Of a DNA stretch of 64,000 nt, positions 1 to 55,958 are shown piece after piece. The position numbers were made by a program, and so were the translations under genes. This DNA comes from Amycolatopsis sp. 2-15 (lineage in GTDB: Bacteria; Actinomycetota; Actinomycetes; Mycobacteriales; Pseudonocardiaceae), in assembly GCF_030285625.1 (NCBI RefSeq), contig NZ_CP127294.1:4164001-4228000 (forward strand), read 5' to 3'. The notes beneath the pieces are model-generated. The model saw only the letters and a list, made by a program, of their open reading frames with translations, was not told the DNA's origin and ran no database searches. Every line of letters begins with the position of its first letter. Within the stretch, counting starts at the first letter, position 1.

Positions 1-1
1 C

Positions 2-624: not shown

Positions 625-831
625 TCAAGCCGGTAGGGTCCGCTGCAGGAACTCCACCGTCAGCTCCCAAGCGCGAGCAGCGGCTTCCGGCCGGTAGAAC
701 ATCGGCGCCACCCGGTTGTGGAAGGCATGTCCGGCGTCCTCCTGCACATGGATTTCCGCCCCCGGATGCCCGGCGACCGCTGACTCGACCACAGCAACAT
801 CCGAACGCGGAATGAACGGATCCTGCCCCCC
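625..831 (-). pseudogene. Dienelactone hydrolase, 3' part (split by the island)
   Basis: This encodes the C-terminal 68 residues of a dienelactone hydrolase-family alpha/beta hydrolase. It begins at GGQDPFIP, carries the region of the catalytic Asp, and ends with the catalytic-His segment DAGHAFHN. The upstream sequence is foreign: the frame continues into island DNA without similarity to the family. The missing N-terminal part is at 55461-55958. Fused at the GA core, codons read F-H-F-G-G-Q-D-P across the join. The gene served as the attB site. Confidence 0.88.
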
Positions 832-862
832 GAGGCGGACTGCCATTTGTTTACATATACGT
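806..862. other. attL: attL of the island (core GA at 832-833)
   Basis: Left of the core is dienelactone hydrolase coding sequence. Right of it (834-856) is an arm that matches, as an inverted repeat, the arm left of the core at the other end (55438-55460), with about 20 of 23 positions identical. Two inverted arms around an asymmetric dinucleotide are what large serine integrases use as attP. The core was set by requiring both arm symmetry and restoration of the interrupted reading frame. Both criteria give the same dinucleotide. Confidence 0.8.
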
Positions 863-928
863 GACCTGGGCGAACCCGGCCCAGCCGTCCCGGCCCGTCC
901 CAGCAGCGGGACGCCTCGCACTGAGGCT

Positions 929-1345
929 CTAGCTGCGAAAACAATGGTTGGGGCAGGTGGGACACGTTTCCCCGCGCTCGTCCCAGCCGTCCCCGACACG
1001 CGCTCGAACTCCGTCTCCGAGAAGTGTCCGGCCTCGTACACACGCACTATCTACACCGGGGCTGGTCGTCGCATAGACGACCAGCTCTTTTGGTTCGTAG
1101 AGTAGCTCCAGGTTCAGCGCTCGGTACAAACAACTCAGGCCGGCCGTTGTCGCGTCGGCCAGCGTTCCGCAGACGTCGCCGAGAGCGTCAATCCTCGCGT
1201 AGATCTCGGCAACCGTCACGTTCGACTCCGCCGGAACAGCGTCGATGTGCGCCCGCGCCGCCGCGGGCTCGGCCTGCGCTTGGTTGATCGGTTCGAGAAG
1301 CGCCGCCGGGTCGACGCCGGCGGTAATGGCGGCCTGTTGTGCCAC
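929..1345 (-). pseudogene. Large serine recombinase, C-terminal relic
   Basis: The translated tail contains the segment AGVDPAALLEPINQAQAE, a later IYARIDALGDV and a terminal VDSACVRG. This is the pattern at the end of actinobacterial serine recombinases (coiled-coil region, then the helical C-terminus). The recombinase catalytic domain with its YxRxS serine, and the zinc ribbon, are absent. It is distinct from the C-terminus of the integrase at the right end. The relic sits about 100 bp inside attL, so it may come from an earlier element that used the same neighbourhood. Confidence 0.5.
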
Positions 1346-1449
1346 GAGTCCTATTGCAACCGCTACCGCGCCGCCACCCGCACCGGCCCCCCGACAGCTC
1401 CAGCGGCAACACCGGCTTCCGCACCGCCGCCGACACCTGAGAACGGCGT

Positions 1450-1933
1450 ACTGCGTCGATCCGGTAGAGCGGGCGTGACCGACACGTCCACGGACGCGTA
1501 CCGCGGTCAGGCGGACCCATGTGGCGTGCTGGTCGGTGAACACGGGGCTGCCCGCCAGGACCATGGGCATTCGCTCGCTCGGACCACGTACCGTGTCTTG
1601 TTCCTCGCGTTGCTCCGCACGTGCATCCGGACGACGCGATCCGGCTCCCCGGTCTCCCAGGTCCGAGACTCCGCGCTGAGCCGGGACTCGGCGAGCTGGG
1701 CTGCGAGTTCCCAGACCGGGACCACGTGGGGGCGCTGAAGATGACCCGGGCCGTCCGTGACGAGGTGCCTCCAGGTGCCGAGGACCCACACGGGGGGCGC
1801 AATCGGCCAGCTGACGGAAGACGACGATCTCGGTGGCGAGATGGGTGATGCCCAGGACACGGACCGCGGCAGGGTCGGCCGGGTCGGCGGGATGCGACGG
1901 ATCGCCGGGGAAGTAGGCGACGAGCCAGGTCAT
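1450..1933 (-). pseudogene. Unrecognised protein gene with two frameshifts
   Basis: From an ATG at 1933 the minus strand encodes MTWLVAYFPGD and continues sensibly to ...RQLADCAP. The reading then continues in a second frame (VWVLGTWRHLVTDGP to RNKTRYVVRASE) and a third (RMPMVLAGSPVFTDQHATW). The first frame change falls at a run of six G at about 1792-1797. The spliced product shows good amino-acid composition, but I recognise no family. It may be true decay or sequencing error in the homopolymer. Confidence 0.4.
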
Positions 1934-2009
1934 CGCGGAGTGGATGATCACGCCGCGCTCGGTCGTGACGTGGCCGGACTGTGGCTGAGGGCGTCGGATT
2001 TCGACGACG

Positions 2010-2732
2010 GTGCCGGCCGGCGGGAAAGTAGGTCGCGGGCGCTCCAGCGCTCGAAGTACACGTGCGGCGGATGCTGGCGCGGCTCGCCACGGCGGCCCGG
2101 GATCGACGATCCGGAGTGCACTCGGCGTGGCCGGCGACGCGATCCAGCGGCACATCGGCCATGCGCAGGCGGAGAGCACCGCACGGTACGGGGAGCATGT
2201 GCGCGACTTCGAGACGTCGCCGGCGCTGCTCGCGGCGACCGCCTTCGAGGCAGCCGGGCTACCGACGAACGCGACAACGCCGGTGGCCAAGATCCGAAAC
2301 CGGTTGATCGCGACGTACGGCCCGACGTGCATGACCTGTCCGACGCTGGGCGACCGTGTCGATCACGACCACGCGACTGGCCTTGTCCGCGGCCTTCTGT
2401 GCAACTGGTGCATCAGCCGAGTCGACCACTGCCTGCACGTGGATGGCTGTGCCTTCGCGGACTACCTCACCAGACCACCGGCAACCGGGCTGAGGATCCG
2501 CTACCCAAACCGCGGCCGTCCGGCTCGATCGCCAACCCTGGACGCAGCCGGCCGTCGAGCACGACGAGAGGAGATCGCCGCGGCTGCGGAAGGCGCCCTG
2601 CAGGGTGCAGAAGACCGCGCGGCGGAACAACTAGACCGGACCCGGCGGGCGCGGGCCGCACCGGCACATCGCCGGCGCCGACCGGCGCCGGGGACACCCA
2701 CCGCCCAGGACCTGTCCCCGGACAAGGCGTGA
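2010..2732 (+). CDS. Endonuclease VII-like HNH nuclease
   Basis: The middle of the protein carries C-M-T-C, then DRVDHDHATGLVRGLLCNWC. This is the signature of the recombination endonuclease VII (T4 gp49-like) His-Me finger family: two zinc CxxC pairs around the DHDH catalytic core. An Arg/Ala-rich, probably disordered tail follows. Such proteins cut branched DNA or act as nicking nucleases, and are common in actinophages and islands. The first GTG of the frame is used; a GTG at 2127 is an alternative, because the region before it overlaps a relic on the other strand. Confidence 0.65.
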   Translation: MPAGGKVGRGRSSARSTRAADAGAARHGGPGSTIRSALGVAGDAIQRHIGHAQAESTARYGEHVRDFETSPALLAATAFEAAGLPTNATTPVAKIRNRLIATYGPTCMTCPTLGDRVDHDHATGLVRGLLCNWCISRVDHCLHVDGCAFADYLTRPPATGLRIRYPNRGRPARSPTLDAAGRRARREEIAAAAEGALQGAEDRAAEQLDRTRRARAAPAHRRRRPAPGTPTAQDLSPDKA

Positions 2733-2762
2733 TCGTTCCCGGTCACCGCGGCCTGGGGCGAC

Positions 2763-3245
2763 CTACACAGTCGGAACGCGGCGGTCGTCCCACGCGAACA
2801 CCCCGTTCCCCTTCACCCAGCTGAGTCCATGAATCCCCATCGGGGCCAGGATTCCTCGCACGCCCGCAGCGTCTTGACGCGGCCGGTGAAACCGGGTAAC
2901 CCACCAGGTTCCCCGCGTCCTGTCCCGGCAGTGCTGCCACGCCTCGACTCCGCACTTCGAGCAGGGCACACCGGCACACGCGTTCCATGCCCGGCGCAGT
3001 GCGGCGTCGACGACGGCCGGATCGCGGGTTGCCCTCGTCGTCGGGTCGAGGGTGAAGTACTCCATCACCACGCGATGATGGCAGGAGCGCCGAACGCCGG
3101 GTTCCGCCGCTCCGGTGACCGCGTCCCGTCGCGCCCGGAACCGGGGCGACCTCGAATCAGAGTCGGGTGCATGGACGAGGCGGAAGAACAGTCGCTCGCC
3201 GGCCGCCGAGGTGGGTCTCATTGAAACTGAATCCGTGCACGTCAA
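2763..3245 (-). CDS. Small putative zinc-binding protein, unknown role
   Basis: About two thirds along, the protein has the pattern C-S-K-C-G-x5-H-C-R followed by T-R-F-H-R-P-R. This resembles the short CxxC...C...H zinc-binding modules found in many actinophage and island proteins. The rest is not recognised. The start is uncertain; MEYFTLDPT, about 60 residues in, would give a more compact protein. It lies between the HNH nuclease gene and an IS481 insertion. Confidence 0.4.
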   Translation of the reverse strand: MTCTDSVSMRPTSAAGERLFFRLVHAPDSDSRSPRFRARRDAVTGAAEPGVRRSCHHRVVMEYFTLDPTTRATRDPAVVDAALRRAWNACAGVPCSKCGVEAWQHCRDRTRGTWWVTRFHRPRQDAAGVRGILAPMGIHGLSWVKGNGVFAWDDRRVPTV

Positions 3246-3308
3246 GAGGAGGCGTGGGCGGTCAGATGTTGCGAGACAGGACAGTTGGCCAGCGCCCGCC
3301 CGACGAGC

Positions 3309-4428
3309 TCTAGGTGTGATGTCCGGGGACGTTGTTCAGCAGTTCGAGGGTGGTGTCACCTGACAGGTGAGGCCCTCCGGTTGTGAAGTGGAACTGCCTA
3401 GGAACCGTTTCACCAGCTGGAGGGCCTCGTGTCCCACCCTAACGCCACGCTGACCCCGATCACTCGTCTGCGGCTGGCCCGTCTGATCGTCGACCACGGA
3501 TGGACCTACACCGCCGCAGCGAAAATGTTCATGGTCGCCGCGCCCACCGCAAAGAAATGGGCCACCCGCTACCGCGACGAAGGCCCAGGCGGCATGACCG
3601 ACCGCAGCAGCCGCCCGCACCACAGCCCCACCAAGACCGCACCCACACTCGTGCGCCGGATCGCACGATTGCGGTGGCGCCACCGGCTCGGCCCCGTCCA
3701 GATCGCCGGCCGGACAGGACTACCGGCCTCGACGGTGCACGCGGTGCTCGTGCGCTGCCGGATCAACCGCCTCTCCCGCATCGACCGGGTCACCGGCGAG
3801 CCGTTGCGCCGCTACGAACACGACCACCCCGGCTCGCTGATCCATGTCGATGTCACCAAGTTCGGCAACATTCCCGACGGCGGTGGCCACCGCTTCGTCG
3901 GACGCGGTCAGGGCAAACGCAACCGGGAAGCCACCGCCAAACGCACCGGCCGACGCAACCACCGCTACGAACCCCGCCCCGGCATCAGCTACCTGCACAC
4001 CGTCATCGACGACCACTCCCGCGTCGCCTACGCAGAAATCTGCACCGATGAAACCTCCGCCACCGCGATCGGTGTCCTGCACCGCGCCGTCGCCTGGTTC
4101 GCCCAGCACCATGTCGCCGTCGAGCGTGTGTTGTCCGACAACGGCTCGGCCTACCGCTCCCACGCCTGGCATCAAGCCTGCGCCGAGCTCGGCATCACAC
4201 CGAAACACACCCGCCCCTACCGGCCCCAAACGAACGGCAAAATCGAACGCTTCCACCGCACCCTCGCCGACGGCTGGGCCTACGCCCGCTTCTACACCCG
4301 CGACCAGCAACGCCGAGCAGCCCTACCAGGCTGGCTTCACTTCTACAATCACCATCGACCCCACTCCGCCCTCGGAGGCCACCCACCCATCACCCGACTA
4401 ACCAACCTGCCTGAACATCACATCTAGG
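3309..4428 (+). mobile_element. IS481-family insertion sequence, intact, with 6-bp target duplication
   Basis: The element spans 3315-4422. Its ends start TGTGATGT on each strand (3315-3322 and the complement of 4415-4422). It is flanked by an identical 6-bp direct repeat TCTAGG at 3309-3314 and 4423-4428. An NCTAGN duplication is characteristic of IS481 insertion. One complete transposase gene is inside. Perfect duplications and an uninterrupted frame suggest a recent insertion. Confidence 0.88.
3429..4427 (+). CDS. IS481-family transposase
   Basis: The protein has 332 residues: an N-terminal helix-turn-helix (TYTAAAKMFMVAAPTAKKW), then an rve-type integrase core. The catalytic triad can be placed as Asp in LIHVDVTKFG, Asp in VLSDNGSAY and Glu in NGKIERFHRTL. 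Length and domain order match complete family members. The stop codon TAG (4425-4427) lies outside the element proper, inside the duplicated target TCTAGG, so the gene relies on its insertion site for termination. Confidence 0.9.
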   Translation: MSHPNATLTPITRLRLARLIVDHGWTYTAAAKMFMVAAPTAKKWATRYRDEGPGGMTDRSSRPHHSPTKTAPTLVRRIARLRWRHRLGPVQIAGRTGLPASTVHAVLVRCRINRLSRIDRVTGEPLRRYEHDHPGSLIHVDVTKFGNIPDGGGHRFVGRGQGKRNREATAKRTGRRNHRYEPRPGISYLHTVIDDHSRVAYAEICTDETSATAIGVLHRAVAWFAQHHVAVERVLSDNGSAYRSHAWHQACAELGITPKHTRPYRPQTNGKIERFHRTLADGWAYARFYTRDQQRRAALPGWLHFYNHHRPHSALGGHPPITRLTNLPEHHI

Positions 4429-4660
4429 CCGCGAGGTGCCGGCCGCCGACGTTGGCCGTCGGCGGTTACAACGCGCACATCGACGGAAACCGGCTCCCGA
4501 TCGCAGCAGGTGCGCGACTCGGCACGGACGTCACGACCCGATTCAACGGTCTCACCCCACGGCGTAGCGGGGCTCATCCACGAACCACCTCACACGGCCT
4601 GATCGCCGGCGACGTTCGAATACCGTGCGGGATTGGTCATCACCGGACGCAAGTGGGCGG

Positions 4661-4684
4661 CGCCGGCGGTAATGCCCGCCGGCG
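4661..4684 (-). terminator. GC-rich hairpin after the minus-strand gene ending at 4717
   Basis: CGCCGGCGG at 4661-4669 pairs perfectly with CCGCCGGCG at 4676-4684, a 9-bp stem with a 6-nt loop. There is no U-tract, as is usual for actinobacterial terminators. It is 33 bases downstream of the stop of the gene at 4717-5268. Confidence 0.45.
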
Positions 4685-4716
4685 GCACACGATCACTTGT
4701 CCGTTATAGACGTTGA

Positions 4717-5268
4717 TCAGGAATGGGGTTGGCAGCGGAGGTCGTAGAGTCTCCAGGCTTCGTTGGTCATCATTATGGCGTTGTGGAGCGCGACGGCGAT
4801 GCGGTCGATCGAGGGCTCTGGTTTCGCGGTGGCCGAGCCGTCCGGCTTCCGAACGGCGTCTTCGACCCGGATGAGGGTGAGCCTGCTGGAGGGGGTTCCG
4901 TGCGCGTGCCCGCTGGTCGTTCGCCAAAGGAATCCGGCGCTTGCGCGGATCTTCGCGCTGTGTTCGTCGCTGCCGGGAAACGCCAAATTGGTGGCGTCCT
5001 TGATCACCGTGGTCATGTCCAGCTTGTATGCCTTGATGTTGGCGAGCTGGAGTCCGATTTGGTCAGCTGCGATCGAGGCTTCATCGAGACGCACGTCGAG
5101 CTTGCGCAGGTCCTGGTCGGCGATGGCCTGGTGCTCGGCGGGGAGGGTGCCGAGGTCCCGGACCAGCTTGCGGCGTTGGTTGATGTCGTCGATGACGATT
5201 CGCAGGGCGTGCTCGCGTCGCTGTTGGCGTTGTCCGGCGAGCACCCACATGGCTTGAGAGGCGCCCAT
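4717..5268 (-). CDS. Conserved-type hypothetical protein, probably 5'-truncated
   Basis: The 183-residue frame starts MGASQAMWVL, has a central segment likely to be helical (LDEASIAADQIGLQLANIK) and ends NEAWRLYDLRCQ. I recall similar actinobacterial proteins of unknown function that are longer and contain a GASQAMWV block internally. The frame just upstream ends LDKSFTPL and overlaps as TGATG, so a frameshift or truncation at the 5' end is likely. Sequence further upstream is a LigD relic, which supports truncation. Confidence 0.5.
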   Translation of the reverse strand: MGASQAMWVLAGQRQQRREHALRIVIDDINQRRKLVRDLGTLPAEHQAIADQDLRKLDVRLDEASIAADQIGLQLANIKAYKLDMTTVIKDATNLAFPGSDEHSAKIRASAGFLWRTTSGHAHGTPSSRLTLIRVEDAVRKPDGSATAKPEPSIDRIAVALHNAIMMTNEAWRLYDLRCQPHS

Positions 5269-5338
5269 CAGAGCGGTGTGAAGGACTTGTCGAGGACGGC
5301 TAGCTGACCCGGCGTCGCGTGGCGAGGCGGCTGCGGCT

Positions 5339-5440
5339 CATCGGTCGGGCAGCGCCACGCGGGTGTCGGCCAGTTCGGCGAGCAGGTCGCCGTGTTCGTC
5401 GACGCGGTGCAGGACGTCCTCGGGTGAAGCTCAGTTCGGC
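5339..5440 (-). pseudogene. LigD polymerase domain, C-terminal relic
   Basis: The minus strand reads DVLHRVDEHGDLLAELADTR followed by VALP and a stop. This is nearly the same as the end of the intact LigD-type polymerase gene at 52248-53177. Sequence upstream of this block is not related. The relic is only about 30 codons long and is one of several ligase/LigD pieces scattered through the island. Confidence 0.65.
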
Positions 5441-5549
5441 CGTGGTGCGAATCAAACGAGCTCGGCAAGCACCGCGGGCCCCGCGGATGACCCGCGAATT
5501 CGTCGACTTTTAGCCGTACGAACCCGCGGGCCTCCGCGTGCTCGCCCGA

Positions 5550-6374
5550 TCAGGACCGGATGAACTCGAGCAGGTCGGCGTTGATCGTCTCGGCCTGCGT
5601 CGTCGGCATGCCGTGCGGGAAGCCCGCGTAGGTCTTGAGTGTGCCGTTCTGCAGGAGTTTCGCCGACAGCGGCGCCGAGTCGGCGTAGGGGACGACCTGG
5701 TCGTCGTCGCCGTGCATGACCAGCACCGGCACGGTGATCTTCTTCAGGTCCTCGGTGAAGTCGGTCTGGGAGAACGCGACGATCCCGTCGTAGTGCGCTT
5801 TCGCGCCACCCATCATGCCCTGGCGCCACCAGTTCTCGATCATGGCTTCCGACGGCTCGACCCCGGGCCGGTTGAAGCCGTAGAACGGCCCCGAAGCGAC
5901 GGCCCGGTAGAACTCCGAACGGTTCGCCAGCAGCTGCGCCTGCATGTCGTCGAACACGCTCTTGGGCAAGCCGTCGGGATTGGCGTCCGTCTGCACCATC
6001 AGCGGCGGCACGGCGCTGAGCAGCGCCGCCTTGGCGACCCGCGACTCGCCGTGGCGGGCGAGGTAACGCACGACTTCGCCGCCGCCGGTGGAGTGTCCGA
6101 TGTGGATGGCGTCGTGCAGGTCGAGGTGTTCGGTCACCGCGGCCAGGTCGTCGGCGTAGTGGTCCAGGTCGTGCCCGTCGGCCACCTGCGCCGACCGGCC
6201 GTGGCCACGACGGTCGTGAGCGATGACGCGGAAGCCGTGCTGCAGGAAGAACAGCATGTGGGTGTCCCAGTCATCCGATGACAGGGGCCAGCCATGGCTG
6301 AACACGATCGGCTGCCCGGTGCCCCAGTCCTTGTAGAAAATCTCGACGCCATCGTTGGTGGTGATCATCGGCAT
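5550..6374 (-). CDS. Alpha/beta hydrolase of the non-haem chloroperoxidase type
   Basis: The protein has 274 residues, starting [18 protein letters not shown]. The oxyanion loop [10 protein letters not shown], nucleophile elbow GHSTGGGE, acid Asp in MHGDDDQVV and final His in FPHGMPTT give the full serine-hydrolase triad in cofactor-free haloperoxidase/esterase order. The product is cytoplasmic (no signal). The natural substrate of such enzymes is generally unknown; esterase and perhydrolase activity are typical. The gene stands alone and is intact, unlike most of its surroundings. Confidence 0.88.
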
Positions 6375-6835
6375 GGGTGCGTTTCTCCGCTTCCTCGGGG
6401 TGCGACGGCTCCCCCGTCGGGGCCTGTCACAGTCGATGATCACGTTGCCCTGCCGGCCGGGGGCCGGGCAAGGTCGCGCGAACCAACTCGCCCGGATTAG
6501 GGCCAGAAGTACCTTAAATTACGGGTGGCACGGTGATCTCACCGACCACCACCCATCCATCCCGACGAAGTGGATCAGCATCATGAGCCACGTCAGACCC
6601 GGCGAGGCCGTCAGGGAGCAGAACTTGCGAGGGCTGTAGGCGACGGTCCAGCACGGGGCACGTCACGCCCACGGGCGACCCGGTGGCCTATACCTAGGCT
6701 GGCGGGATTCGGCCGCGGGCACGACACCGTGTTCCTCGAACACCGCAGTCCAGTCAGCTGACCTCAGGTGAAGTACGGGTCCCTTCGGTCGCTCAACGCG
6801 TCGGCGCGGTTTTCTCGTTTCGGGGACACATCCGC
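6375..6835. other. No gene seen between the hydrolase and the lipoprotein
   Basis: Short open frames on both strands here have no recognisable domains, good start context or family resemblance. The segment should contain the promoter of the minus-strand hydrolase near 6380-6500. I can point to no specific elements. Confidence 0.5.
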
Positions 6836-6877
6836 CGCAGCGCCGCGGCCGGACGTGAACCGGTCCGCGGCGCTGCG
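6836..6877 (-). terminator. Strong hairpin terminator after the lipoprotein gene
   Basis: A perfect 13-bp GC stem pairs 6836-6848 (CGCAGCGCCGCGG) with 6865-6877 (CCGCGGCGCTGCG), with a 16-nt loop. It lies 6 bases beyond the stop of the minus-strand lipoprotein gene. It lacks a U-tract. Confidence 0.7.
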
Positions 6878-6882
6878 TTGGA

Positions 6883-7488
6883 TTACAGGCGGCCTTCGAG
6901 GGTTTTCATCACTGCGGTGTATTCGGCGCGCATGGTGCCGTCGGGAGGATTCACCAGGGAGATCGTCGCGAGGCGGGTCTCACCATGGCTGAACTTGGCG
7001 ACCACGATGTCGGTGCCGCCGTCCTTGGTGTCGCAGTACATCGCGGCTTCGTAGAGGGACTGCACGTCATCTGCGCAGGACTCGCTGAACAGCTGCAGCG
7101 CCTTCTGCGGGGAGAGCAGCGACGGCACGCCGCCGACCGTCAGGGTTCCCAGGTGGGTCCCGGGGGGATCGGCGAGGCGGTACTCACAGTTGTAGGCGGT
7201 GAACTGGTCTTGGTGTGTCTGGGGCCGTTCACTGCTGGCGTCGACGTCTGTGTCATCGAACGTCTTCGCGAACTCCGCCGGGGACAAGAACGGGCACGCC
7301 GCGCTCAGGTGTGCCGGAGAAACCGCCGGCACGAACGGCGCCGGGGGAGGGGCGCTGCTGCTGGTGGTGGTCGGCAGGCTGCTGCTGGACGCCGGCGCCC
7401 CCGCCACAGCTCCGCTCCCACCGTTCGAGCACCCTGCGGCAGCCGCCGCCACGAAAGCGACGGCGATGAATCTTCGAGACAAACGCAT
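6883..7488 (-). CDS. DUF3558-type secreted lipoprotein
   Basis: The protein has 201 residues. The N-terminus is a lipoprotein signal (MRLSRRFIAVAFVAAAAAGC, lipobox Cys about residue 20), followed by a Ser/Pro/Thr linker and a folded domain with conserved cysteines in the CPFL, NCEYR, SCADD and YCDTK segments. This matches the DUF3558 lipoproteins abundant in Pseudonocardiaceae, anchored to the outer face of the membrane. Their function is not known. A terminator follows directly. Confidence 0.8.
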   Translation of the reverse strand: MRLSRRFIAVAFVAAAAAGCSNGGSGAVAGAPASSSSLPTTTSSSAPPPAPFVPAVSPAHLSAACPFLSPAEFAKTFDDTDVDASSERPQTHQDQFTAYNCEYRLADPPGTHLGTLTVGGVPSLLSPQKALQLFSESCADDVQSLYEAAMYCDTKDGGTDIVVAKFSHGETRLATISLVNPPDGTMRAEYTAVMKTLEGRL

Positions 7489-7637
7489 GCCCTGATCCTG
7501 CCGGACGTTCCCGGAATTCCCGCTGTCGGAGATCCACTCGTGATCACCATGAGTGACGATTTGGGGGACTTGTCCGCTGTGCGTAACATTTGCGCGATCT
7601 GGACCGGATTGCACGAGGGGACCGGCAGGATGAGGTG

Positions 7638-8119
7638 ATGCCGGACCTGCTCTGGGACGAGGTCAGAGGCCTCTTCGATCCCCACCTGACGGGCGCGCTT
7701 CCCGACGTCTCGGTAGCCGACGCGTCGGCCGAGGACTGGCAAGCAGTGTTCGACCTCGTGCGGTCACGGGGGTGGGCGTGGGAGTACCGGCTGGACGATG
7801 TCGTCACGCCGTTGCCCACGGCGGTCGAAGCGTTGATCATCCGGTCGATGCGGAGCTGCGGGTTTGGCCGGCCACGGGCGTGCTGGCGATCTTCCGGACC
7901 TACTCGCCTGATCAGATCGACTTTGACGTCGACCTACGGGAGTTGCAGGGCCAGACCGGAGTGAACGTCTTGTGCGACTTGCTACGCGCGATCGGCCAGA
8001 CGCTCGGGAAGCCGGTGCTGCTGACGCCTGAAGGAGACTCAGGGCAAGCGGTCCTCGCGTTCGATCCGCGCGTGGACCGTGTCGTTCTCATGGCCGACCC
8101 CGATCCGCGAACCCGCTGA
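7638..8119 (+). pseudogene. Hypothetical protein gene with one frameshift
   Basis: From the ATG at 7638 the protein reads MPDLLWDEVRGLFDPHLTG to TPLPTAVEAL. It then continues in another frame as DAELRVWPATGVLAIFRTY to VDRVVLMADPDP. The switch is at about 7836-7842. Taken together this gives a compact protein of about 160 residues whose C-terminal half looks like a small alpha/beta domain. I do not recognise the family. Its stop nearly abuts the next gene, so the two may have formed an operon. Confidence 0.5.
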
Positions 8120-8190
8120 CGAAGTCGAAGTCCCCTCGGGCTGGGCGGGCACTCGCTTCTGCGGCGATCGAGGCGCAGGGTGCTCGCGCG

Positions 8191-8664
8191 GTGCGGCAGC
8201 GCACCAAGCTCGCTTTGGCCGGCACTGCCGCCGCCGTGGTGATCGTCGGGTTGGGCGGGGCGGCGCTGCTGACCCGCGGAGCCCCGCAGACGATCACCCC
8301 GGCCGCAGGAGGGCAGGTCACGACCGCGGCGCCGATCGAACGCGAGATTGCCTACTGCTACCAGAACGCGGACATCACCAGCAGCGCGGACGGCCAGCAC
8401 GTCGCCGTCGGCGTCAGCGGCAACAGCGCCGACGGCCGCGGTGACACCGCAGCCCACATCATGTCGTACTGCAAGACCGCCTGGGCCGAGGACTACTACC
8501 AGTGGCAGAAGCCCGGGCTGCCCCGCGTCGTGCCTCCGCTCGTCGCGTGCGTGCTGACGTCCGCGGCCGTCAACATCGACCAGGCGGCGGTCGGCGCGGT
8601 CGGCGTGTTCCCTGGCGACGCGAAAACATGCGCCGCGATGGGCCTGCCCGTTGCACGAATCTAG
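8191..8664 (+). CDS. Small membrane-anchored exported protein, unknown function
   Basis: After a basic start (RQRTK) comes one transmembrane or signal segment (LALAGTAAAVVIVGLGGAAL). An extracytoplasmic domain of about 120 residues follows with four cysteines (YCYQN, SYCKT, ACVL, KTCAAM), suggesting disulfides. The GTG start was chosen because it leaves a normal N-terminal anchor. The same frame is open further upstream to the stop of the preceding gene, so a longer cytoplasmic N-terminus is possible. Confidence 0.6.
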   Translation: MRQRTKLALAGTAAAVVIVGLGGAALLTRGAPQTITPAAGGQVTTAAPIEREIAYCYQNADITSSADGQHVAVGVSGNSADGRGDTAAHIMSYCKTAWAEDYYQWQKPGLPRVVPPLVACVLTSAAVNIDQAAVGAVGVFPGDAKTCAAMGLPVARI

Positions 8665-8738
8665 AATCCGTGCGTTAACCAAAAACGCCGAATTCTTTCG
8701 TGATCTAAGTCACACCCGATTGGTTCTCGATACTTTTC

Positions 8739-8939
8739 CATGCCGGCCTCGGCGCTCCGTTCCGGCAGCTCGGGATCACCGCGCGGCAGTTGCGCACCGA
8801 CCGCATCCTCGACGAGGCCCACCATACAGCCGACCCTGTCCAGCTCATCCGTGTATTCGGGCTCGGCGTCACCACCGCCGTGAGCTACGTCCGCGCAGCC
8901 CACCCCGACCGCTTTGCCACGGACCCCACCAGCGCGTGA
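8739..8939 (+). pseudogene. Zinc-ribbon tyrosine recombinase, C-terminal relic
   Basis: The 66 codons end in a pattern (LRTDRILDEAHHTADPVQL, then FGLGVTTAVSYVRAAHP) that I associate with the extreme C-terminus of a large actinobacterial family of site-specific recombinases. These start with a zinc-ribbon domain. The N-terminal zinc-ribbon part of such a protein is seen separately at 27893-28294. No catalytic residues remain here. Confidence 0.45.
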
Positions 8940-11030: not shown

Positions 11031-11262
11031 CCCTGTCACGCGCGACATGTCACCGGTGGCCCTGGCCGCCCGATCGGAGGCTCGAGGCGAAAACCCGGCC
11101 GGCGCGGACGCGCCAACCCCGGCACACCCTGATCCGAGAGACTGGGACCACCCAGGTGGCCTCCGGTCGATGCCTGGTTAACCTGGCGGTTGTCACTTCG
11201 TGTTGCTCACGGCCCATCGACATCTCGGCGGGGTCAGGCAAGTCGAGGAGGAAGAGGGACTC

Positions 11263-12972
11263 GTGACCAACCCATTGGTGGCCGCACCGGTGAGTTCAAC
11301 GACCGCGTTCACCGGGATCCAGCTGCTGGAAGACGCGCAATCGGTGAAGACCGGAATCGAGAGCGGCGACTGGGCCTCAGCGGTCCTGGGAGCCGCGGGA
11401 ACGGCGATGGACGCGCTCGCGGTCGTGGCGGATCCCTTCGGCGCGATCCTGTCCTCGGGCGTGAGCTGGCTGATGGAGCACGTCGGGCCGCTCAAGGATG
11501 CGCTGGACAAGCTCGCCGGCGACCCGGACCAGATCACCGCGAAAGCACAGACCTGGCAGAACATCTCCCAGGAACTCGCCGCCATCGGCGAGGACCTGAC
11601 CTCGCTGGTTCAGACCGACCTCCAAGGCTGGTCCGGTTCCGCCGCGGACGCCTACCGCCAGCGGGCGTCCGACCTGGCCGCGGTGCTCGGCGCCGCGAGC
11701 GAGGCCGGGGCCGGCGCGGGAACCGGAGTGCAGACCGCCGGTGAGGTCGTCGCCGCGGTGCGCTCGCTCGTTCGAGACACCATCGCCAAGGTGGTGTCCC
11801 ACATGATCTCGTGGGCGCTGCAGGTGGTCTTCACGCTCGGCGTCGGTCTGACCTGGGTCGTGCCGCAGGTGGTCAACCTGGTCGCGAGGACCGCCACGCA
11901 GATCGCCGGTCTCGTCAAACGCCTCGTCAGCGCGCTCAAGACGCTGTCCGGGCTGCTGGGCAGGGCGAGCAAGGTCTTCGACGGCGTGTCGGACGCGCTG
12001 AAGAAGGTCAAGACCGGCAAGGTCTCGCCCCCGACCGCTCCGGGCAAGCTGCCACCCGGGGTCAACAGCTTCATCAAGCTCGGTGGCGGCGCACCCGGGG
12101 CGAGCAGGGCCGGTGGCCCCGCCGGCCACGCCGGTGGCGGCACCACCGCGAGCCACGCAGGTGGTGGTGGCGGCTCGCGGTCGCTCGACGACGACCTGCC
12201 CATCGCTCCCGATCCGCCGCCTCAGTCCGCGTACGGCAACCACCCGGCCATCCCGCAGTCCGCTCACGATCACGTGATCTTCGGCAACCTCAAGCCACCG
12301 AGGAAGCCGAACAAACCGTGGGGGTTCACCGGGGGCCACGTCCTGCACGATGACCTCCCGGCGGGCACTACCGCACACAACTCGGCGGCGGCCGGCGCCA
12401 ACCCCAGCTGGCACGGAGCGGGGGTCACGGGGGTCAAACCACCGCCACCGGGGCTCGCGTCGGTTCCCGGGCCGGGGCCGTTCGGCTCGGTCCCTGCGCC
12501 CAACGGGGTGTACCACTTGAGCAACCCGACGATGACGCCCCCGCCAGGCCACATCGGTGACGCCGGGAAACCGGGCAGCACGATGTTCCCGCAGGGCATG
12601 AATCCGGGGCTGGTGCAGAACGTCGGAAACCAGGCGTGGAATGGTGGCGCGACCCACGGGCCGATGATCCCGGTCACCGGCCCGAACGGTGTGAAGCTGG
12701 ACCCGCACGGCAACCCGCAAAGCTATACGTGGCAGGGCCACGGGCAGATCCCGTACACCCCCATCTGGGACGAGCGTCCCGACGGCACCTTCGGCCCCAC
12801 CCACGGCAGTGGAGCTGGCAACCACCCGAACGCGGGTAGCACCATCCACGTATCGGGTTACGCGAACCCGGATTACTCCGCACCGGCACCCCCCGGCATC
12901 GCAGCACCTCCGGGTGGCACCGCCCCAGCGGTGATCAAGCCGGCCACCTATTACCCGGACGGCAGGAATTGA
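11263..12972 (+). CDS. WXG100-type protein with long Gly/Pro-rich tail
   Basis: About 569 residues from a GTG preceded by GAGGAGGAAGAG. The N-terminal ~230 residues are helical, contain W-S-G (GWSGSAADAYRQ, near residue 122) and a hydrophobic stretch near residues 180-210 (VVFTLGVGLTWVVPQVVNLV). They fit an ESX/type VII-exported helical hairpin followed by a membrane-active or channel-like region. The remainder is Gly/Pro/His-rich with repeated PPPG-like turns and no catalytic domain I can name. The next gene on the strand may be its partner. Confidence 0.7.
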   Translation: MTNPLVAAPVSSTTAFTGIQLLEDAQSVKTGIESGDWASAVLGAAGTAMDALAVVADPFGAILSSGVSWLMEHVGPLKDALDKLAGDPDQITAKAQTWQNISQELAAIGEDLTSLVQTDLQGWSGSAADAYRQRASDLAAVLGAASEAGAGAGTGVQTAGEVVAAVRSLVRDTIAKVVSHMISWALQVVFTLGVGLTWVVPQVVNLVARTATQIAGLVKRLVSALKTLSGLLGRASKVFDGVSDALKKVKTGKVSPPTAPGKLPPGVNSFIKLGGGAPGASRAGGPAGHAGGGTTASHAGGGGGSRSLDDDLPIAPDPPPQSAYGNHPAIPQSAHDHVIFGNLKPPRKPNKPWGFTGGHVLHDDLPAGTTAHNSAAAGANPSWHGAGVTGVKPPPPGLASVPGPGPFGSVPAPNGVYHLSNPTMTPPPGHIGDAGKPGSTMFPQGMNPGLVQNVGNQAWNGGATHGPMIPVTGPNGVKLDPHGNPQSYTWQGHGQIPYTPIWDERPDGTFGPTHGSGAGNHPNAGSTIHVSGYANPDYSAPAPPGIAAPPGGTAPAVIKPATYYPDGRN

Positions 12973-13039
12973 CCACACCACAGCCCGACAGCCGCAGGGC
13001 GATCCGGAACCCCTGTGACCTTGACCACGGAAGCGGCGT

Positions 13040-13681
13040 ATGACCAGCGCGATCACCTCCCCCTTCGACATCGGGGAATCGGTGTCGCTCGCGTTCGACG
13101 ACCAGCGCCGGCTGCGGATCATGGTGCCGCGCGAACTGCTTCCGGTCGCTGCCTGGCTGTACACCGACGCCCAGCCCAACATCGCCGTGCTCGACCGGCT
13201 CGGTGCCACCCTGCAGCGGTGTCGCAGCGAGGAGCGGACGCTGGTCGGCAACGGCTGCCAGGTCGACTTCGTCAATAACATCGTGGTGCTGGAAAGCCGG
13301 TACGGCCGGTGGCCACGCAAGATCGTGCCGCAGTCGGTGTTCTGGCCCGTGCTGAACGGGCTGCGGTCATTCCTCGTCGCGGCGGCCGCGGATCCGGCCC
13401 TGGCCCGGCCAGCGGACTACCCGCTGGCGGTCCCACGCATCTTCGAGGAACGGCCCGACGGCGGGCAAAAGCCGTACTTCGTCGACTACACCTACTTTCC
13501 GCCGGAGTGGTCGGGCGAGGAGGTGCGTGCGGCGGGCAACGGCGCTTGGCAGTCACCCACCGCGGTCCGGGACCTGGAGACCGGCGTGTGGTCCGGGATG
13601 TGGCGGGGACTCGAGCTGGCCGGGTACTTCGATCCCGCGACCGGCGAGGTGCTGACCTTCTTCCCGGTCATCGCGCCGTAG
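13040..13681 (+). CDS. Hypothetical protein downstream of the WXG100-type gene
   Basis: A 213-residue soluble protein starting MTSAITSPFDIGESVSLAFD, with a mixed alpha/beta pattern and aromatic-rich segments (YFVDYTYFPPEW, GMWRGLELAGYF). I do not recognise a family. Its location 67 bases after the WXG100-type gene, and the strong terminator after it, suggest a two-gene unit. A chaperone or immunity role is possible but not shown. Confidence 0.6.
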   Translation: MTSAITSPFDIGESVSLAFDDQRRLRIMVPRELLPVAAWLYTDAQPNIAVLDRLGATLQRCRSEERTLVGNGCQVDFVNNIVVLESRYGRWPRKIVPQSVFWPVLNGLRSFLVAAAADPALARPADYPLAVPRIFEERPDGGQKPYFVDYTYFPPEWSGEEVRAAGNGAWQSPTAVRDLETGVWSGMWRGLELAGYFDPATGEVLTFFPVIAP

Positions 13682-34784: not shown

Positions 34785-34798
34785 GGGAAAGGGACACC

Positions 34799-36212: not shown

Positions 36213-36219
36213 CGGGAGC

Positions 36220-38498: not shown

Positions 38499-38571
38499 TC
38501 GGCGCCGCACCGACGGTCGACCCCACCCGAACAAACCCGGCCTGACGGCCGAGAACGGATATCGTGGCCGG

Positions 38572-39357: not shown

Positions 39358-39367
39358 CCGGCGGGGT

Positions 39368-40156: not shown

Positions 40157-40284
40157 TTCTTCATCGTCACGACTGACGGTCGCCGATGAGTCCCACCGGT
40201 CCACTCGCCGGTCCGAGGCGTGGTCGCGGGTCCCGCCTGTTCCGAGACTGGACGTCACCACCCACTCGACGACGAGGAGGAACC
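40157..40284. promoter_or_regulatory. Divergent promoter region, hydratase-family gene / extradiol dioxygenase
   Basis: 128 bp between opposite start codons. GAGGAGG (about 40274-40280) is the ribosome site of the dioxygenase. A short inverted motif GTCGTGACTGAC lies near 40167. I cannot assign -35/-10 boxes with confidence. A likely second target of the IclR protein. Confidence 0.4.
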
Positions 40285-42359: not shown

Positions 42360-42378
42360 CCCGAGAGGAAACCCGGCC

Positions 42379-42720: not shown

Positions 42721-42733
42721 TTCGGAGAGAACT

Positions 42734-47484: not shown

Positions 47485-48842
47485 CTAGTACTGCAACGGC
47501 AGTTGCTGGCGTTGTGGTAGATCATCGTGGTGGTGGTCGATGTGGTGATGGATCAGCTGGGTCGGGTGCATGAGCGGATCTCTGGCCGGTTCGCGCGGTC
47601 GGAGCCGCGGGCTCGGGCGCGGGAGTATGTGTCCGGGTTGGTCGCTGGTTTGGAGCGGAAGAATGGGTGGACGCTGGCCGAGCAGGCCGGTGAGATGTCG
47701 CCGGATGGGATGCAGCGGCTGCTGCGCTGGGCGGACTGGGACATCGACGGCGTCCGCGATGACGTTCGCGACTACGTCATCGAGCACCTCGGCGAGCCCG
47801 GTGGCGTGCTGATCGTGGACGACACCGGGTTCCTGAAGAAAGGCGTCCGCTCGGCCGGTGTGCAGCGGCAGTATTCGGGAACGGCGGGCCGGATCGAGAA
47901 CTGCCAGATCGGCACGTTCCTGGCCTATGCCGGTGCTCGCGGGCATGCGCTGATCGATCGGGAGCTGTATCTGCCCGAGCCCTGGATCGCGGACCGGGAT
48001 CGGTGCCGGCGGGCGGGGATCCCGGAAGGGGCCGAGTTCGAGACCAAGCCGCGCCAGGCCATGGCGATGTTGGCCCGGGCCTTCGCCGCGCAGGTGCCGT
48101 TCGCCTGGGTCACCGCCGATGAGGCCTACGGGCAGGTCAAGTACCTGCGGCTGTGGCTGGAAGCCCACGACGCCGCACACGTGCTGGCCACCAAGGTCAA
48201 CGACACCCTGGTCACCACCGGCGGCACCGAGACCCGCGCCGACGAGCTGATCGCGGACCTGCCAGCCAGGGCGTGGCGGCGGTTGTCGGTCGGGGCCGGG
48301 GCGCACGGGCCACGGGAGTACGACTGGGCGCGGGTACCGATCCGGATCGGCTGGCAGCCCGGGCGCGGGCACTGGCTGCTCGCCCGCCGCAAGGTCACCG
48401 ATCCGACGGAGATCGCCTACTACGTCTGCTACGGACCCCGCCGCTCGACGCTGCTGGACCTGGCCTGGATCGCCGGGACTCGCTGGCGGATCGAGGAATG
48501 CTTCCAGCAGGCCAAAAACGAAGCCGGACTCGATCAGTATCAGGTCCGGTCTTGGCGAGCGTGGTATGCCCACATCACCCTGTCCATGCTCGCCCACGCC
48601 TGGCTCGCCGTCTCCCGATCCCTTGTCACAAAAGGGGAACCGGAGCCGACGAGCCGGGCATGATCGGATTCACGCTACCGGAGATCCGGCGCCTGCTTAC
48701 CAAGCTGGTCTTGCGTGTCGCCGACGCCGCCAACCACGTCTGGGCCTGGTCCCGCTTCCGCCGCCGACGACAACACCAAGCCCGGCTCAGCCACTACAAA
48801 CGACGCGGCTACCCACTCGCCTAACTGCCGTTGCAGTACTAG
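47485..48842 (+). mobile_element. IS701-family insertion sequence with CTAG duplication
   Basis: The element spans 47489-48838. Its 16-bp ends are perfect inverted repeats (TACTGCAACGGCAGTT at 47489-47504 and its complement at 48823-48838). CTAG flanks it at 47485-47488 and 48839-48842, the 4-bp target duplication of this family. The right CTAG is shared with the next element. Confidence 0.88.
47527..48824 (+). CDS. IS701-family transposase, frame change near the 3' end
   Basis: The main frame encodes 378 residues with DDE residues in LIVDDTGFLKKG, VTADEAYGQ and WRIEECFQQAKNEAGLDQYQ. It stops at 48661-48663. The family's C-terminal tail (EIRRLLTKLVLRVADAANHV to HYKRRGYPLA) follows in the -1 frame. 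ACA-AAA-GGG-G at about 48627-48636 is a plausible slip site. Either programmed frameshifting or an inactivating indel. Start GTG 47527; ATG 47548 is possible. Confidence 0.8.
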
Positions 48843-50865: not shown

Positions 50866-50912
50866 TTCGCCCCGTCCGCGAGCGTGAACCCACCGGAGGA
50901 GCGAGTTCCAGC

Positions 50913-52016
50913 ATGGCAACCATCGCAACCCGTGTCATCGGCGGCGTCGACACCCACAAACACACCCACTACGCGGCCGTGGTCGACGAGCACGGCCGGT
51001 TACTCGGACACCGTGAGTTCCCCGCCCGCGACCGCGGCTATGCACAGTTGTTGGAATGGATCAGGGGCCACGGCGTCATCGCCTCGATCGGTGTCGAGAG
51101 CACCGGGTCGTTCGGTGCTTCCCTGAGCAGGTTTCTCACCGCCGCCAACGTCCGGGTCATCGAGGTCAACCGGCCAAACCGTCTGGCCCGGCGTCTGGAT
51201 GGCAAGTCCGACCGCCTGGACGCCGAGCAGATCGCCCGCGCTGTTCTCGGGCAAACATCGACCGCGACCCCGAAAGCCAAGTCTGGCGTCGTCGAGGTGA
51301 TCCGAACCCTCCGAATCACCCGAACCAGCGCGGTCAAGGCCCGGACCCAGACGTTCAACACCCTCTGGGGCGTGATGATCGGTGCGCCCTCGCCCTTACG
51401 GGACGACCTGGTGGCCTTGACCAAGAGGACCCTGATCAACCGATGCCTGCAACTGGACCCAGAAACCGATGACGTCCTCACTCTGATCGACGCACCCGAG
51501 CAGTTGCTCACGGCCGGAGTGACAACAGCGCTGCGCGACCTGGCACGCCGCTGGAAGGCATTGGACGAAGAGATCACAACGCTCAACAAACAGATCGAGG
51601 CGTTGGTCCGCTCCACCGCGCCGGAACTCGTCGAACTTCACGGGGTGGGCATCGAGTTGGCTGGGCAATTCCTGGTCACCGCCGGCGACAACGCCGAGCG
51701 CATCCGCAGCGAGGCAGCCTTTGCCAAACTCTGCGGAGTCGCTCCACAACCAGCCAGTAGCGGCCGCACCACCGGCCGCCACCGGCTCAGCCGCAGCGGC
51801 GATCGCGCCGCGAACAGCGCCCTCTACATCGTGACCATCGTCCGCATGCGCCGTCACCAGCCCACTCGTGACTACCTCGACCGGCGGACCGCCGAAGGAC
51901 GGAGCAAACGCGAGATCATCCGCTGCCTCAAGCGCTACATCGCCCGCGAGATCTACGCCAACCTTCCGCGATCGGCGACGGTCGACCCAGAGCCAGCCCT
52001 TCCGAGCGTTGCTTGA
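50913..52016 (+). CDS. IS110-family recombinase (DEDD/serine transposase)
   Basis: 367 residues from ATG 50913, GGAGGAG upstream. The N-terminal RuvC-like DEDD domain has Asp in IGGVDTHKHTH, Glu in IGVESTGSFG and the Asp pair in KSDRLDAEQIAR. The C-terminal Tnp domain has GVAPQPASSGRTTGRHRLSR with the catalytic Ser. All expected motifs are present and the frame is intact, so the element could be active. Confidence 0.92.
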   Translation: MATIATRVIGGVDTHKHTHYAAVVDEHGRLLGHREFPARDRGYAQLLEWIRGHGVIASIGVESTGSFGASLSRFLTAANVRVIEVNRPNRLARRLDGKSDRLDAEQIARAVLGQTSTATPKAKSGVVEVIRTLRITRTSAVKARTQTFNTLWGVMIGAPSPLRDDLVALTKRTLINRCLQLDPETDDVLTLIDAPEQLLTAGVTTALRDLARRWKALDEEITTLNKQIEALVRSTAPELVELHGVGIELAGQFLVTAGDNAERIRSEAAFAKLCGVAPQPASSGRTTGRHRLSRSGDRAANSALYIVTIVRMRRHQPTRDYLDRRTAEGRSKREIIRCLKRYIAREIYANLPRSATVDPEPALPSVA

Positions 52017-53177: not shown

Positions 53178-53182
53178 CGGGC

Positions 53183-53667
53183 TCACCCGTCGCCGGCGCC
53201 GCGGCTGGTGTCGGGGACGAGCACCTCGGGCGGTGTCTTGTCCGGGCGCCAGCCGCGCCACGCGGTGTGCCGCAGGCGGTGTTCGCGCGGGGTGAACTGG
53301 CGGTAGACGACCTCCCCGACCAGGACCGGCTCGACCCAGTGGGCGCCGCGGGCCCGGTCGCGCGGCACCTCGTTCGCGAACGGACTCGTCGAGCGGGCCA
53401 GCGGGTCGAGTTTGGCCTGGGCGTCGAGGAGGGCCTGGTGGTTGAAGCCGGTGCCCACGTCGCCGATGTACACGAGGTCGCCGGTGTCGCGGTCGTGCGC
53501 GCCGAGCAGCATCCCGCCCAAGAGGCCTTCGCGGCCGCCCTGGCCGGCGCGCCAGCCGCCGATCACGACCTCCTGCGTCTGGATCAGCGGGTGTTTCAAC
53601 CACTCGGGGCTGCGCCGGCCGGGCCGGTACTTCGACGTCCGGGCCTTCACCACCAGCCCCACGTCAC
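53183..53667 (-). pseudogene. ATP-dependent DNA ligase, C-terminal part
   Basis: Begins GLVVKARTSKYRPGRRSPEW (motif V and the start of the OB fold), continues VVIGGWRAGQGGREGLLGGM and ends with the family's WRGWRPDKTPPEVLVP tail. The adenylation domain with K-x-D-G is missing. Truncation is at about 53667, where unrelated sequence next to the serine integrase begins. Originally it formed an operon with the polymerase. Confidence 0.82.
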
Positions 53668-53675
53668 AGATCAGT

Positions 53676-53804
53676 GAGGAGTCACGTGCCTACTGGCACC
53701 CGATCGTCGCGGCGATGGCAACGCTTAGCGACGAGAAGATCGCCGATGTCGCCGCCCTATTGCGGCGGATAGAGGACAGGCGGGCCAGCACGGGCGAGGC
53801 GTGA
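53676..53804 (+). pseudogene. Short C-terminal fragment of an unknown small protein
   Basis: Reads EESRAYWHPIVAAMATLSDE, then KIADVAALLRRIEDRRAST. It looks like the end of a small helical protein of the kind carried on actinobacterial integrative elements; the start is absent unless ATG 53716 is used. It is convergent with the integrase across a strong hairpin. Confidence 0.4.
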
Positions 53805-53811
53805 TAGATCT

Positions 53812-53857
53812 TAGGTTGAGGGGTCGCCAGGTGATGTGTCGGCGGCCCCTCAACCTA
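53812..53857. terminator. Bidirectional hairpin terminator
   Basis: A 17-bp stem pairs 53812-53828 with 53841-53857, one G-T wobble, 12-nt loop. It ends both the short plus-strand frame (stop 53804) and the minus-strand integrase (stop within the stem at 53855-53857). Confidence 0.75.
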
Positions 53858-55425
53858 GCTGTTATCGACTTGCCTGCTGCGGTGAGTGTTCCAGGTCGAG
53901 GTGAGCGTTGCGAACTCGTCGGTATCGAGCGGCCTGATTCGAGAACGATCGAAGACTCGGTTGTTGTGGCGGCTGGGGAAGATGCACAGTTTGTCCACGT
54001 CGATCGCCTTTGACAGCATCGCCCGCCTCTCGGCGAGGTCGCCGGCGGCCCAATCGGCTTCCAGCGTCGCGGCCGACGCAGCTTTGGTCTGTTGGTGTGG
54101 AGCCTCGGTGGTTAGCGCTTCTTGTTCAGCCGACAGGCGCGCTAGATCGGCCGCGAGTGGTTCGTTCGCAACATCAAACGCTTCCATAGTCAACCTACGT
54201 CGACCAAGACGCTCGGACAGGTCGCGCTGAAGCTTCTCGATCTCCTTGATCTCGCGTTCCACTGCCAGCAATCGCTCGCTGGCTTGAGCTTTGGCCGCCG
54301 CCACTCGTGAGGCGTGGCGTTCGTCGGAGAGGGGGCCACGGTGAAGGCCAGTAGTTCGGCGTCGGTCTTGCGTCGGTCGATGTAGACCTTGCCGCAGCCG
54401 CCGCGTTGTAGCGGGCAGAAGTAGTGGCCGCGTTTGCTGCCGTCTGGGTAGGGGCTAGCCTTGATGCTTCGTGCGCTGAGTTTGCGGCCGCAGACGCCGC
54501 AACGCAGGATGCCCGAGCCGAGATAGGCCTGGCCGGCGATGCGGCCACGCTTCCGGCCTGCGAACAGCGCTTGCAACCGGTCGTACGTGCGCTGATCGAG
54601 GATCTGTTCACCCTTCAGCCGGCCAACGATCTTGTTGTCGTGGACCAGGTAGCCGCCCAGGGCTGGGCGCTGCATCGTGAACATGACCGTCGAGTGGATC
54701 CAGTTGCGACCGTAGACCGTCCGGATACCGGCGCCATTCCACATCTTCAGGACTTTCCAGCCCGTGCCGTCTTCCGAGAGCAGTAGCTCGGCGGCATCGC
54801 GGATTGCTCGGCGTTCCTGGTCGACCAGTTCGGCCGGGGCTTCAGGTCGGTCGGCGTTCGTCTCGCCTTCCCCCGGCTTCCATGTCATGTCCTTGCCCGG
54901 GAAACCGAACGCGCGCGGTCCACCGGTTTCCCTTCCTTGCGCGCGGATCGACTCGAACCGGCGCTTGAGCCGGCGCGAGGTATCGTCGCTCGACCGTGCT
55001 GCGTGGGCAACTTCGATGCGCAGAATGAACCGGTCATCCGGGTCGGCAAGGTCGCGTTCGCCGTGGGCTGAGTAGACCTTGTAGCCGTGCTCCGCGAGGT
55101 CGATCAGGGCTTCCAGGTCGCGTGGCTGACGAAACAGCCGGTCGGTGTGCCACACGACGCAGCCGTCCGACTCGCCGGACTCGACCCGGGCGAGCAGTCG
55201 CTCCCAGCCCGGTCGCTTCACCTTCCGGTTCCAGGCTGACAGGCCGTCGGACAGCTCAAGGCCCAGCGTCCCGCCGACGCGTTTGATCACCTTGCGGTTG
55301 TCCGCGAGCTGGTCGTCGATCTTCTCCAGCTCGCCTGTCTCCGGAACCTTCGACAGCCGGCCGTAGGAGTCCAAGATCAGGCGACGGCCCCTCTGACCTG
55401 CACTAGCCTTGTCGTCGCTGCTCAT
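53855..55425 (-). pseudogene. Large serine integrase of the island, one frameshift
   Basis: The N-terminal resolvase domain reads LILDSYGRLSKVPETGELEK (catalytic Ser) with WHTDRLFRQPRDLEALIDLA. Next come the recombinase domain (FGFPGKDMTWKPGEGE onward), a zinc ribbon (CGVCGRKLSARS...YFCPLQRGGCGKVY) and a coiled coil (SERLLAVEREIKEIEKLQRD) reaching a C-terminal LDTDEFATLTSTW. The frame changes at a run of five G at 54331-54335; one base more or less restores about 520 residues. Its start is 36 bp from the attR core, as usual for such integrases. Confidence 0.88.
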
Positions 55426-55434
55426 GCAGCCGAT

Positions 55435-55487
55435 CGTATGTCAACAAAAGGTAGTCCGCCGAAATGGAACTGGATCGGGCAACTCAC
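55435..55487. other. attR: attR of the island (core GA at 55461-55462)
   Basis: Left of the core (55438-55460) lies the attP arm that mirrors 834-856. Right of it is dienelactone hydrolase coding sequence. Rejoining the two inner arms across GA gives a near-palindromic attP of about 48 bp. Rejoining the outer sides gives attB inside the hydrolase codons for H-F-G-G-Q-D-P. Confidence 0.8.
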
Positions 55488-55958
55488 CTCATCCAGCGAA
55501 GCGATCTCCGCAGCCACCGTCGACCCGTAGAACGACACCGCCGTATCCGGCGTACCCGCGGCAGCGGCAGCGAAGGCGAGAGACCCACCCAGGCAGAAGC
55601 CCAACACGCCGGCACTGGAGGTCGAAGCCCGGAGATGCGCAAGGGTCGCCAGCACATCCGACAGCGCGAGCGCCGGATCCAACTGACCCGAGATCTCCAT
55701 CGACCGCGCGACCCCGGCCTCGTCATGCGCAGACGACCACCCCGGCGCGAAGCGGTGGAACAGCTCAGGCACGGCTACCACGTAGCCCAACTCAGCGAGG
55801 TCCGCGGCCACGCCGGACAGGTACGCGTCCAGGCCGAAGATCTCCTGGATCAGCACCAGACCGGGACCCCGGCCGCCGGCAGGCAGCCACACGGGCAGGT
55901 CGACGGGACCGTCGGCGAGCTGCAGGCGATCGACACGAGTGGGCAAGTTTCCTCCCAA
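55461..55958 (-). pseudogene. Dienelactone hydrolase, 5' part (split by the island)
   Basis: 166 codons. VWLPAGGRGPGLVLIQEIFG (family N-terminal motif with the active-site Glu), LAELGYVVAVPELFHRFAPG, and the nucleophile segment GVLGFCLGGSLA with the catalytic Cys. It stops matching at CPIQFHFG and continues directly at 831-625. The restored enzyme would be a normal cytoplasmic dienelactone hydrolase. Confidence 0.88.

Follow-up and report, generated by a model that had tools for sequence, protein, structure and literature searches.

A dienelactone hydrolase gene split by a 54.6-kb island in Amycolatopsis: a probable serine-integrase insertion whose relatives differ in core and target

How does a single gene come to lie in two parts, one near each end of a 64-kb stretch of bacterial DNA? 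The stretch analysed here (the window) comprises 64,000 nucleotides (nt) of the soil actinobacterium Amycolatopsis sp. 2-15 (G000:C1:4164001-4228000, where G000 is the source genome, a single contig of 10.05 Mb), and its gene for a dienelactone hydrolase (DLH) is cut in two by an island of 54,629 bp. Very probably, a serine-integrase element of a family found in Pseudonocardiaceae recombined into the DLH gene, with a core and a target that differ from those of its nearest relatives, most simply by a change in its own line, and later underwent a frameshift in its integrase, the loss of its transfer gene, and the filling of its space by other DNA.

The two halves rejoin at GA into 498 + 207 = 705 nt without a break in the frame, that is, 234 codons and a stop, which agrees with the normal protein predicted in the first-pass annotation of this DNA. 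Against the PF01738 profile of 217 positions, the 5′ half matches positions 8-150 (8.6e-24) and the 3′ half positions 151-216 (4.8e-11), with neither gap nor overlap. The joined protein aligns with its best solved relative, 1DIN, over residues 23-229 (4.9e-32). Beyond these halves there is no second DLH match at 1e-20 in the G000 genome. The nucleophile motif (GFCLGG) is carried by the 5′ part and the Asp and His motifs (GGQD and GHAF) by the 3′ part, so neither piece should be active, and the function of the host gene would have been lost.

The search for DLH in 80 Amycolatopsis genomes, G000 included (cut-off 1e-20), gave a match in 55 and none in 25. The gene is in one piece and free of inner stops in 54 of the 79 other genomes (one of them, G020, at only 58%). 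In the closest relative, G059, the DLH is whole, 94% identical, and adjoins trpB (98.7% identical). The G059 join reads ...CCACC-GA-AATGGAACTGG..., exactly at GA and with zero bases lost or duplicated; window positions 630-833 and 55456-59850 come together there at 1037033/1037039. The outer flanks (window 1-694 and 60599-64000) follow in the same order in G059, with approximately 1.4 kb extra separating the DLH from the counterpart of window 1-694, and with approximately 0.75 kb of the window (59850-60599) having no match at that locus. An unsplit relative with the predicted join was the check proposed at first pass, and G059 matches base for base at the join. Together with the gapless profile match, this upholds the earlier claim that one DLH gene is halved by a precisely delimitable 54.6-kb island. 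On the gene strand, the core TC is kept in 29/29 aligned DLH loci (all fetched loci minus the window's own, G059 included), with 3-12 differences over 52 nt. The insertion site is thus a verified one, in a gene conserved across much of Amycolatopsis.

The two junctions, attL and attR, have only a very short core in common. The longest string present at both is CCGA, with none of at least 5 nt, and the empty site of G059 reveals no target duplication. On the island side of the core, 20/23 positions are identical between 834-856 and the reverse-complemented 55438-55460. None of 200,000 random pairs drawn from G059 DNA reached this value, and the inverted arms described in the earlier annotation are therefore confirmed. 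The arms flanking the core form a near-palindromic attP, which is the usual form for serine integrases. An integrase gene does adjoin the junction as claimed, its ATG at 55425 being 35 nt from the core.

This integrase has an N-terminal resolvase domain (PF00239, 1e-14, residues 21-165). The zinc-ribbon PF13408 scores 24.9 bits against a cut-off of 25.3, and many of the listed relatives carry it according to precomputed annotation; DUF4368 was not reported for either integrase piece by the profile search. The integrases of G006 and G008 are single frames of 519 and 523 residues, and the homology of the first frame of the window stops at residue 364. Residues 367-515 follow in another frame; therefore, the integrase appears to be broken by a frameshift, unless a sequencing error is involved. 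The truncated 5′ DLH frame continues across the right junction to a TGA at 55422-55424. This TGA overlaps the integrase ATG (ATGA, 55422-55425), and the integrase could be translationally coupled to its broken host gene.

Relatives of the integrase are present at 1e-20 in 22 of the 80 genus genomes and at 1e-100 in 17 of the 297 family genomes drawn, G000 counted in both. No relative of more than 80% identity located in a DLH was found in the genus, family, genome-contig (one locus), protein, phage and plasmid searches, the last three among the matches listed. The far ends of the elements were sought for 18 relatives, namely G006, G055, G008, G071, G021 (twice), G067, G072, G062, G018, G225, G085, G200, G145, G270, G239, G091 and G247. 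Seventeen sister elements of 9.6-41.4 kb were delimited, and the far end of G062 was not found. Far ends were accepted with mismatches of up to 6 (G225 and G270), 5 (G085, G200 and G247) or 4 (G071), which makes these six delimitations weaker. The cores were first identified by eye, and a script then placed them.

The end layout of the 17 sister elements is the same as that of the window, and in each of the 18 cases, window included, the two ends carry an identical core. The integrases of the 17 relatives are 46-76% identical to that of the window. Their cores are TT in 10, TG in 4, CT in 2 and AG in 1, and the window has TC; the six nearest relatives all have TT. In a single sister element, that of G055, one end matches the left 198 bp of the island and the other its right 1.5 kb. 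The left end resembles the far ends of both G055 and G006, and therefore both ends of the island are tied to one element family. For the left end, the blastn matches were kept, and those in tblastx were composition noise and were discarded. The elements of G006, G055 and G008 (14.6-20.8 kb) have attP arms like those of the window and integrases 76%, 74% and 72% identical to its own, and those of G055 and G006 also resemble it in far-end sequence. They differ from it in their TT core, in a site with no selected gene frame over it, in a one-frame integrase, and in an FtsK-type protein.

The folding z-score of the joined 82-nt site (100 mononucleotide shuffles) is at or below -3 in 10 of the 17 relatives and above this in 7; the window stands at -1.0. 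Five of the six nearest relatives lie at or below -4.9, with G006 at -0.1. Gene frames over the site were judged by codon-position G+C frame selection, an earlier coding-frame score having been too noisy. Such a frame was selected in the window and in 4/17 relatives. That of G225 (391 codons) is strong, that of G085 (411 codons) overlaps another frame, and those of G021b (94 codons, the sole one among the six nearest) and G072 (128 codons) are weak. Only in the window and G225 do we regard the site as lying inside a gene. Insertion of the G225 element splits an open frame whose parts rejoin as ...LPESLDVALYRIAQETLTNALRHG..., a putative sensor histidine kinase by its RIAQETLTNALRHG stretch.

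Two of the nearest sites deserve description. The G008 element hit a palindrome like TTGAGGGACTNNNAGTCCCTCAA, a repeat that is present (with up to one mismatch) at 108 places in the G008 genome. It occurs 0-2 times in each of the seven other genomes scanned and is therefore not common to the hosts of the family. The G055 element (G055:C1:1898994-1919834) lies within a palindrome that is nearly perfect; the corresponding site in the uninterrupted DLH of that genome is about 4.6 kb away, which is either a coincidence or a regional hot spot.

In the tree of the 18 integrases, which was rooted for drawing only, the window groups with six TT users (100/99) and, nested in that set of seven, forms a set of four with G006, G008 and G055, all three of them TT users (95/94). 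The TC core and the target of the window are probably a derived change in its own line. Several results weigh against the reading given at the outset. The cores are only weakly grouped on the tree (6 changes, with 5/200 shuffles as low), and no integrase relative exceeds 76% identity among the best 120 of 405 hits. An attB motif built from the sites of seven relatives recovers 6/7 when each is left out in turn, missing that of G055, and those six may have been found because their repeats are alike. The motif does not recover the DLH site, since a fraction of 0.46 of background positions scores as high; a common attB motif for a family that includes DLH is thus unsupported, and common attB recognition by the family is not shown. 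Finally, the DLH site is a single case, neither the 80 genus genomes nor the element ends read containing a second split DLH, and DLH therefore cannot be called the regular target of this integrase.

The same single case lends weight to a reading that we hold to be quite possible, if somewhat short of an even case, namely that DLH served only by chance as a secondary (pseudo-attB) site, where an integrase of relaxed or multi-targeting character inserted its element once, with no new specificity acquired. The relatives occupy many different sites, one of them (G225) in a putative histidine kinase gene, and multi-targeting clades of large serine recombinases are described in the available part of PMC10083194. 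On the contrary, the window has TC at both ends, as in DLH, with TT in the six nearest relatives, and a TT element arriving by chance should face a core mismatch. In addition, the site with its core is as well conserved in the 29 DLH loci as a regular target would be. Mismatched cores generally fail to recombine. That the attP core was still TT at integration, the core of those six relatives, and that the mismatch with the TC of DLH was afterwards repaired to TC at both junctions, is accordingly an unlikely course of events: it requires repair in the same direction at two places, and efficient strand exchange takes place only with parallel alignment of the crossover dinucleotides (PMC3783163, as far as its text was available).

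An origin without any single element is far less probable still. The island is rich in insertion sequences (IS) and fragments and one of its cargo blocks is found elsewhere in G059, as would suit halves that were parted by a chromosomal rearrangement or an IS event, with the arms a coincidence. The exact conservative join, the inverted arms, and the homology of both ends to the ends of one element family make this extremely improbable, and the join and the sister-element ends rule it out as the origin of the split, as far as sequence can. Hardly more credible is the combination of two different elements, in which one end belongs to a serine-integrase element and the other to an unrelated later event. 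Most of the interior has indeed nothing in common with the relatives, but there is 80.5% identity between the left 198 bp and the far end of the G055 element, and 72% over 104 bp in the case of the G006 element.

Under the preferred reading, insertion of one integrative element into DLH followed by decay, the attP of the element would have recombined with a site inside the gene, and the cut would have separated the nucleophile motif from the Asp and His motifs. The nearest relatives use the core TT and mostly hairpin DNA outside genes, and this member would have switched both its core (to TC) and its target. Afterwards, the integrase would have been frameshifted and the transfer gene lost, and the space would then have been filled by insertion sequences, gene fragments and an independently moved catabolic block. 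We infer that the insertion was performed by this integrase, and likewise the order of the later events. By now the island has probably lost its mobility, except with help in trans.

In our judgement, the way in which serine integrases acquire new sites is poorly understood. A tentative scenario, which we consider possible but rather doubtful, is that a single-base change of TT to TC in attP barred the element from the ancestral palindromic TT sites between genes and steered it towards a conserved coding site of matching core, with TG, CT and AG as further switches. Core mutation as the cause of the target change is speculative. If true, it would be a general way for serine-integrase elements to change their home site. 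The sister elements provide a set with differing core and target, one in which an intact sister integrase and attP core variants make the change accessible to experiment.

The first-pass annotation did not recall DLH as a target of serine integrases; a precedent is in print, however. According to the accessible part of PMC8092301, the attachment site of the M. abscessus prophage prophiGD86-1 (cluster MabI), which has a serine integrase, is attB-17, located within the DLH family gene MAB_3265. It resembles the window in the serine integrase, the short core and the disrupted DLH family open reading frame, and differs in being an 81-kb phage genome instead of a degraded island. Its integrase is distant, only 34% identical to that of the window over 254 residues. 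The M. abscessus prophage record gave no DLH match. Among phage records, six have a DLH match over at least 80% of the query at less than 60% identity, none of them from Mycobacterium.

Integration of the Bxb1 type into groEL1, cited in the same portion of PMC8092301, is likewise a gene disruption by a serine integrase, in another gene. In general, the insertion of serine-integrase elements into genes is common, to judge from the excerpts available of PMC10083194 and PMC6549336, and the latter, which deals with Amycolatopsis, does not mention dienelactone in that excerpt. The multi-targeting large serine recombinases of PMC10083194 are like the present family in that related integrases use several sites and the core TT occurs. 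They are defined there, in the text at hand, within clusters of 90% identity, as opposed to the 46-76% of the 17 relatives. The present element family, whose members differ in core and target, was not found described in the literature, a weak negative from searches that were not narrowly aimed. In conclusion, the event adds one more case to a known type, with DLH as a kind of target already in print and an ordinary mechanism. New are the 17 delimited related elements and the difference in core and target within the family, and the change of core and target is the interesting part.

Table 1. Positions of the DLH parts, junctions, integrase and other features in the window
Feature	Position	Strand	Remarks
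DLH, 3′ part	625-831	-	last 68 residues; profile 151-216; GGQD and GHAF motifs
Crossover dinucleotide GA (TC on integrase strand), left junction	832-833	+	
attP half arm, left island end	834-856	+	20/23 against right arm
Remaining far end of original element	834-1031		80.5% over 200 bp to G055 far end; 72% over 104 bp to G006 far end
Aromatic-degradation cargo	31575-44255 (12.7 kb)		89% identical block elsewhere in G059
Remnant (tail) of small gene, convergent to integrase in relatives	53668-53804	+	in 10/11 relative loci searched
Integrase C-terminal part, out of frame	53888-54331	-	55% identical to residues 367-515 of G006/G008 integrases
Serine integrase open frame, 411 residues	54190-55425	-	resolvase domain; homologous to G006/G008 integrases over residues 1-364 only
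attP half arm, right island end	55438-55460	-	similar arm in relatives
Crossover dinucleotide GA, right junction	55461-55462	+	
DLH, 5′ part	55461-55958	-	first 166 residues; profile 8-150; GFCLGG motif

With its integrase apparently broken, its transfer gene missing and its interior a mosaic, the island does not look like an intact element. In the comparison of 129 proteins of seven sister elements with the island (cut-off 1e-5), the integrases match, as does one further protein of G067 (27% to the integrase). Further matches are those of two proteins to a DDE-type transposase gene (window 47575-48657), of one unnamed G055 protein to 50898-51983 (35%), and of two proteins to the small gene that is convergent to that of the integrase (within 53454-53801). 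A weaker match of this remnant to a G008 protein extends back to 53454. By its position, the small gene is a possible candidate for a directionality factor. The FtsK-like proteins among the 129 have no match in the island at this cut-off, and no FtsK/SpoIIIE-type (TraB-like) transfer protein, as expected of an actinomycete integrative and conjugative element (AICE-like), was detected in 40 selected open reading frames of the island. The FtsK-type protein of the G008 element is recognised by PF01580 (8.1e-9); that of G006 is below the cut-off and 84-85% identical to that of G055. Most other sister-element proteins received no or only weak family names in the searches.

The scanned interior contains IS481, DDE and ISL3-type transposase genes or pieces of them, as well as fragments such as a DNA-ligase C-terminus. 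The plasmid matches to 836-8800 that were listed (8 of 830 records) fall over the IS481 gene. The cargo genes encode aldehyde dehydrogenases, FAA-hydrolase family proteins, an alpha/beta hydrolase, the beta subunit of a ring-hydroxylating dioxygenase, an IclR regulator, a LigB-type dioxygenase and a ferredoxin. The counterpart of the block in G059 (G059:C1:8913856-8926555) is far from the DLH of that genome, and in G000 (6982591-6989175) the sequences that flank it in G059 are about 260 bp apart. Thus, either the block relocated independently, or it disappeared from that place and was acquired in the island.

A second recombinase gene of the island, of the tyrosine type, is located at window 28617-29720. 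At 11200-13681, a gene for a WXG100-like protein is followed by an EndoU-like nuclease gene, and this pair is possibly a secreted polymorphic toxin. A stretch of 1.4 kb (window 6789-8166) is 98% identical to G059 8526946-8528326, more alike than the flanks, and represents either a recent exchange or a mobile unit.

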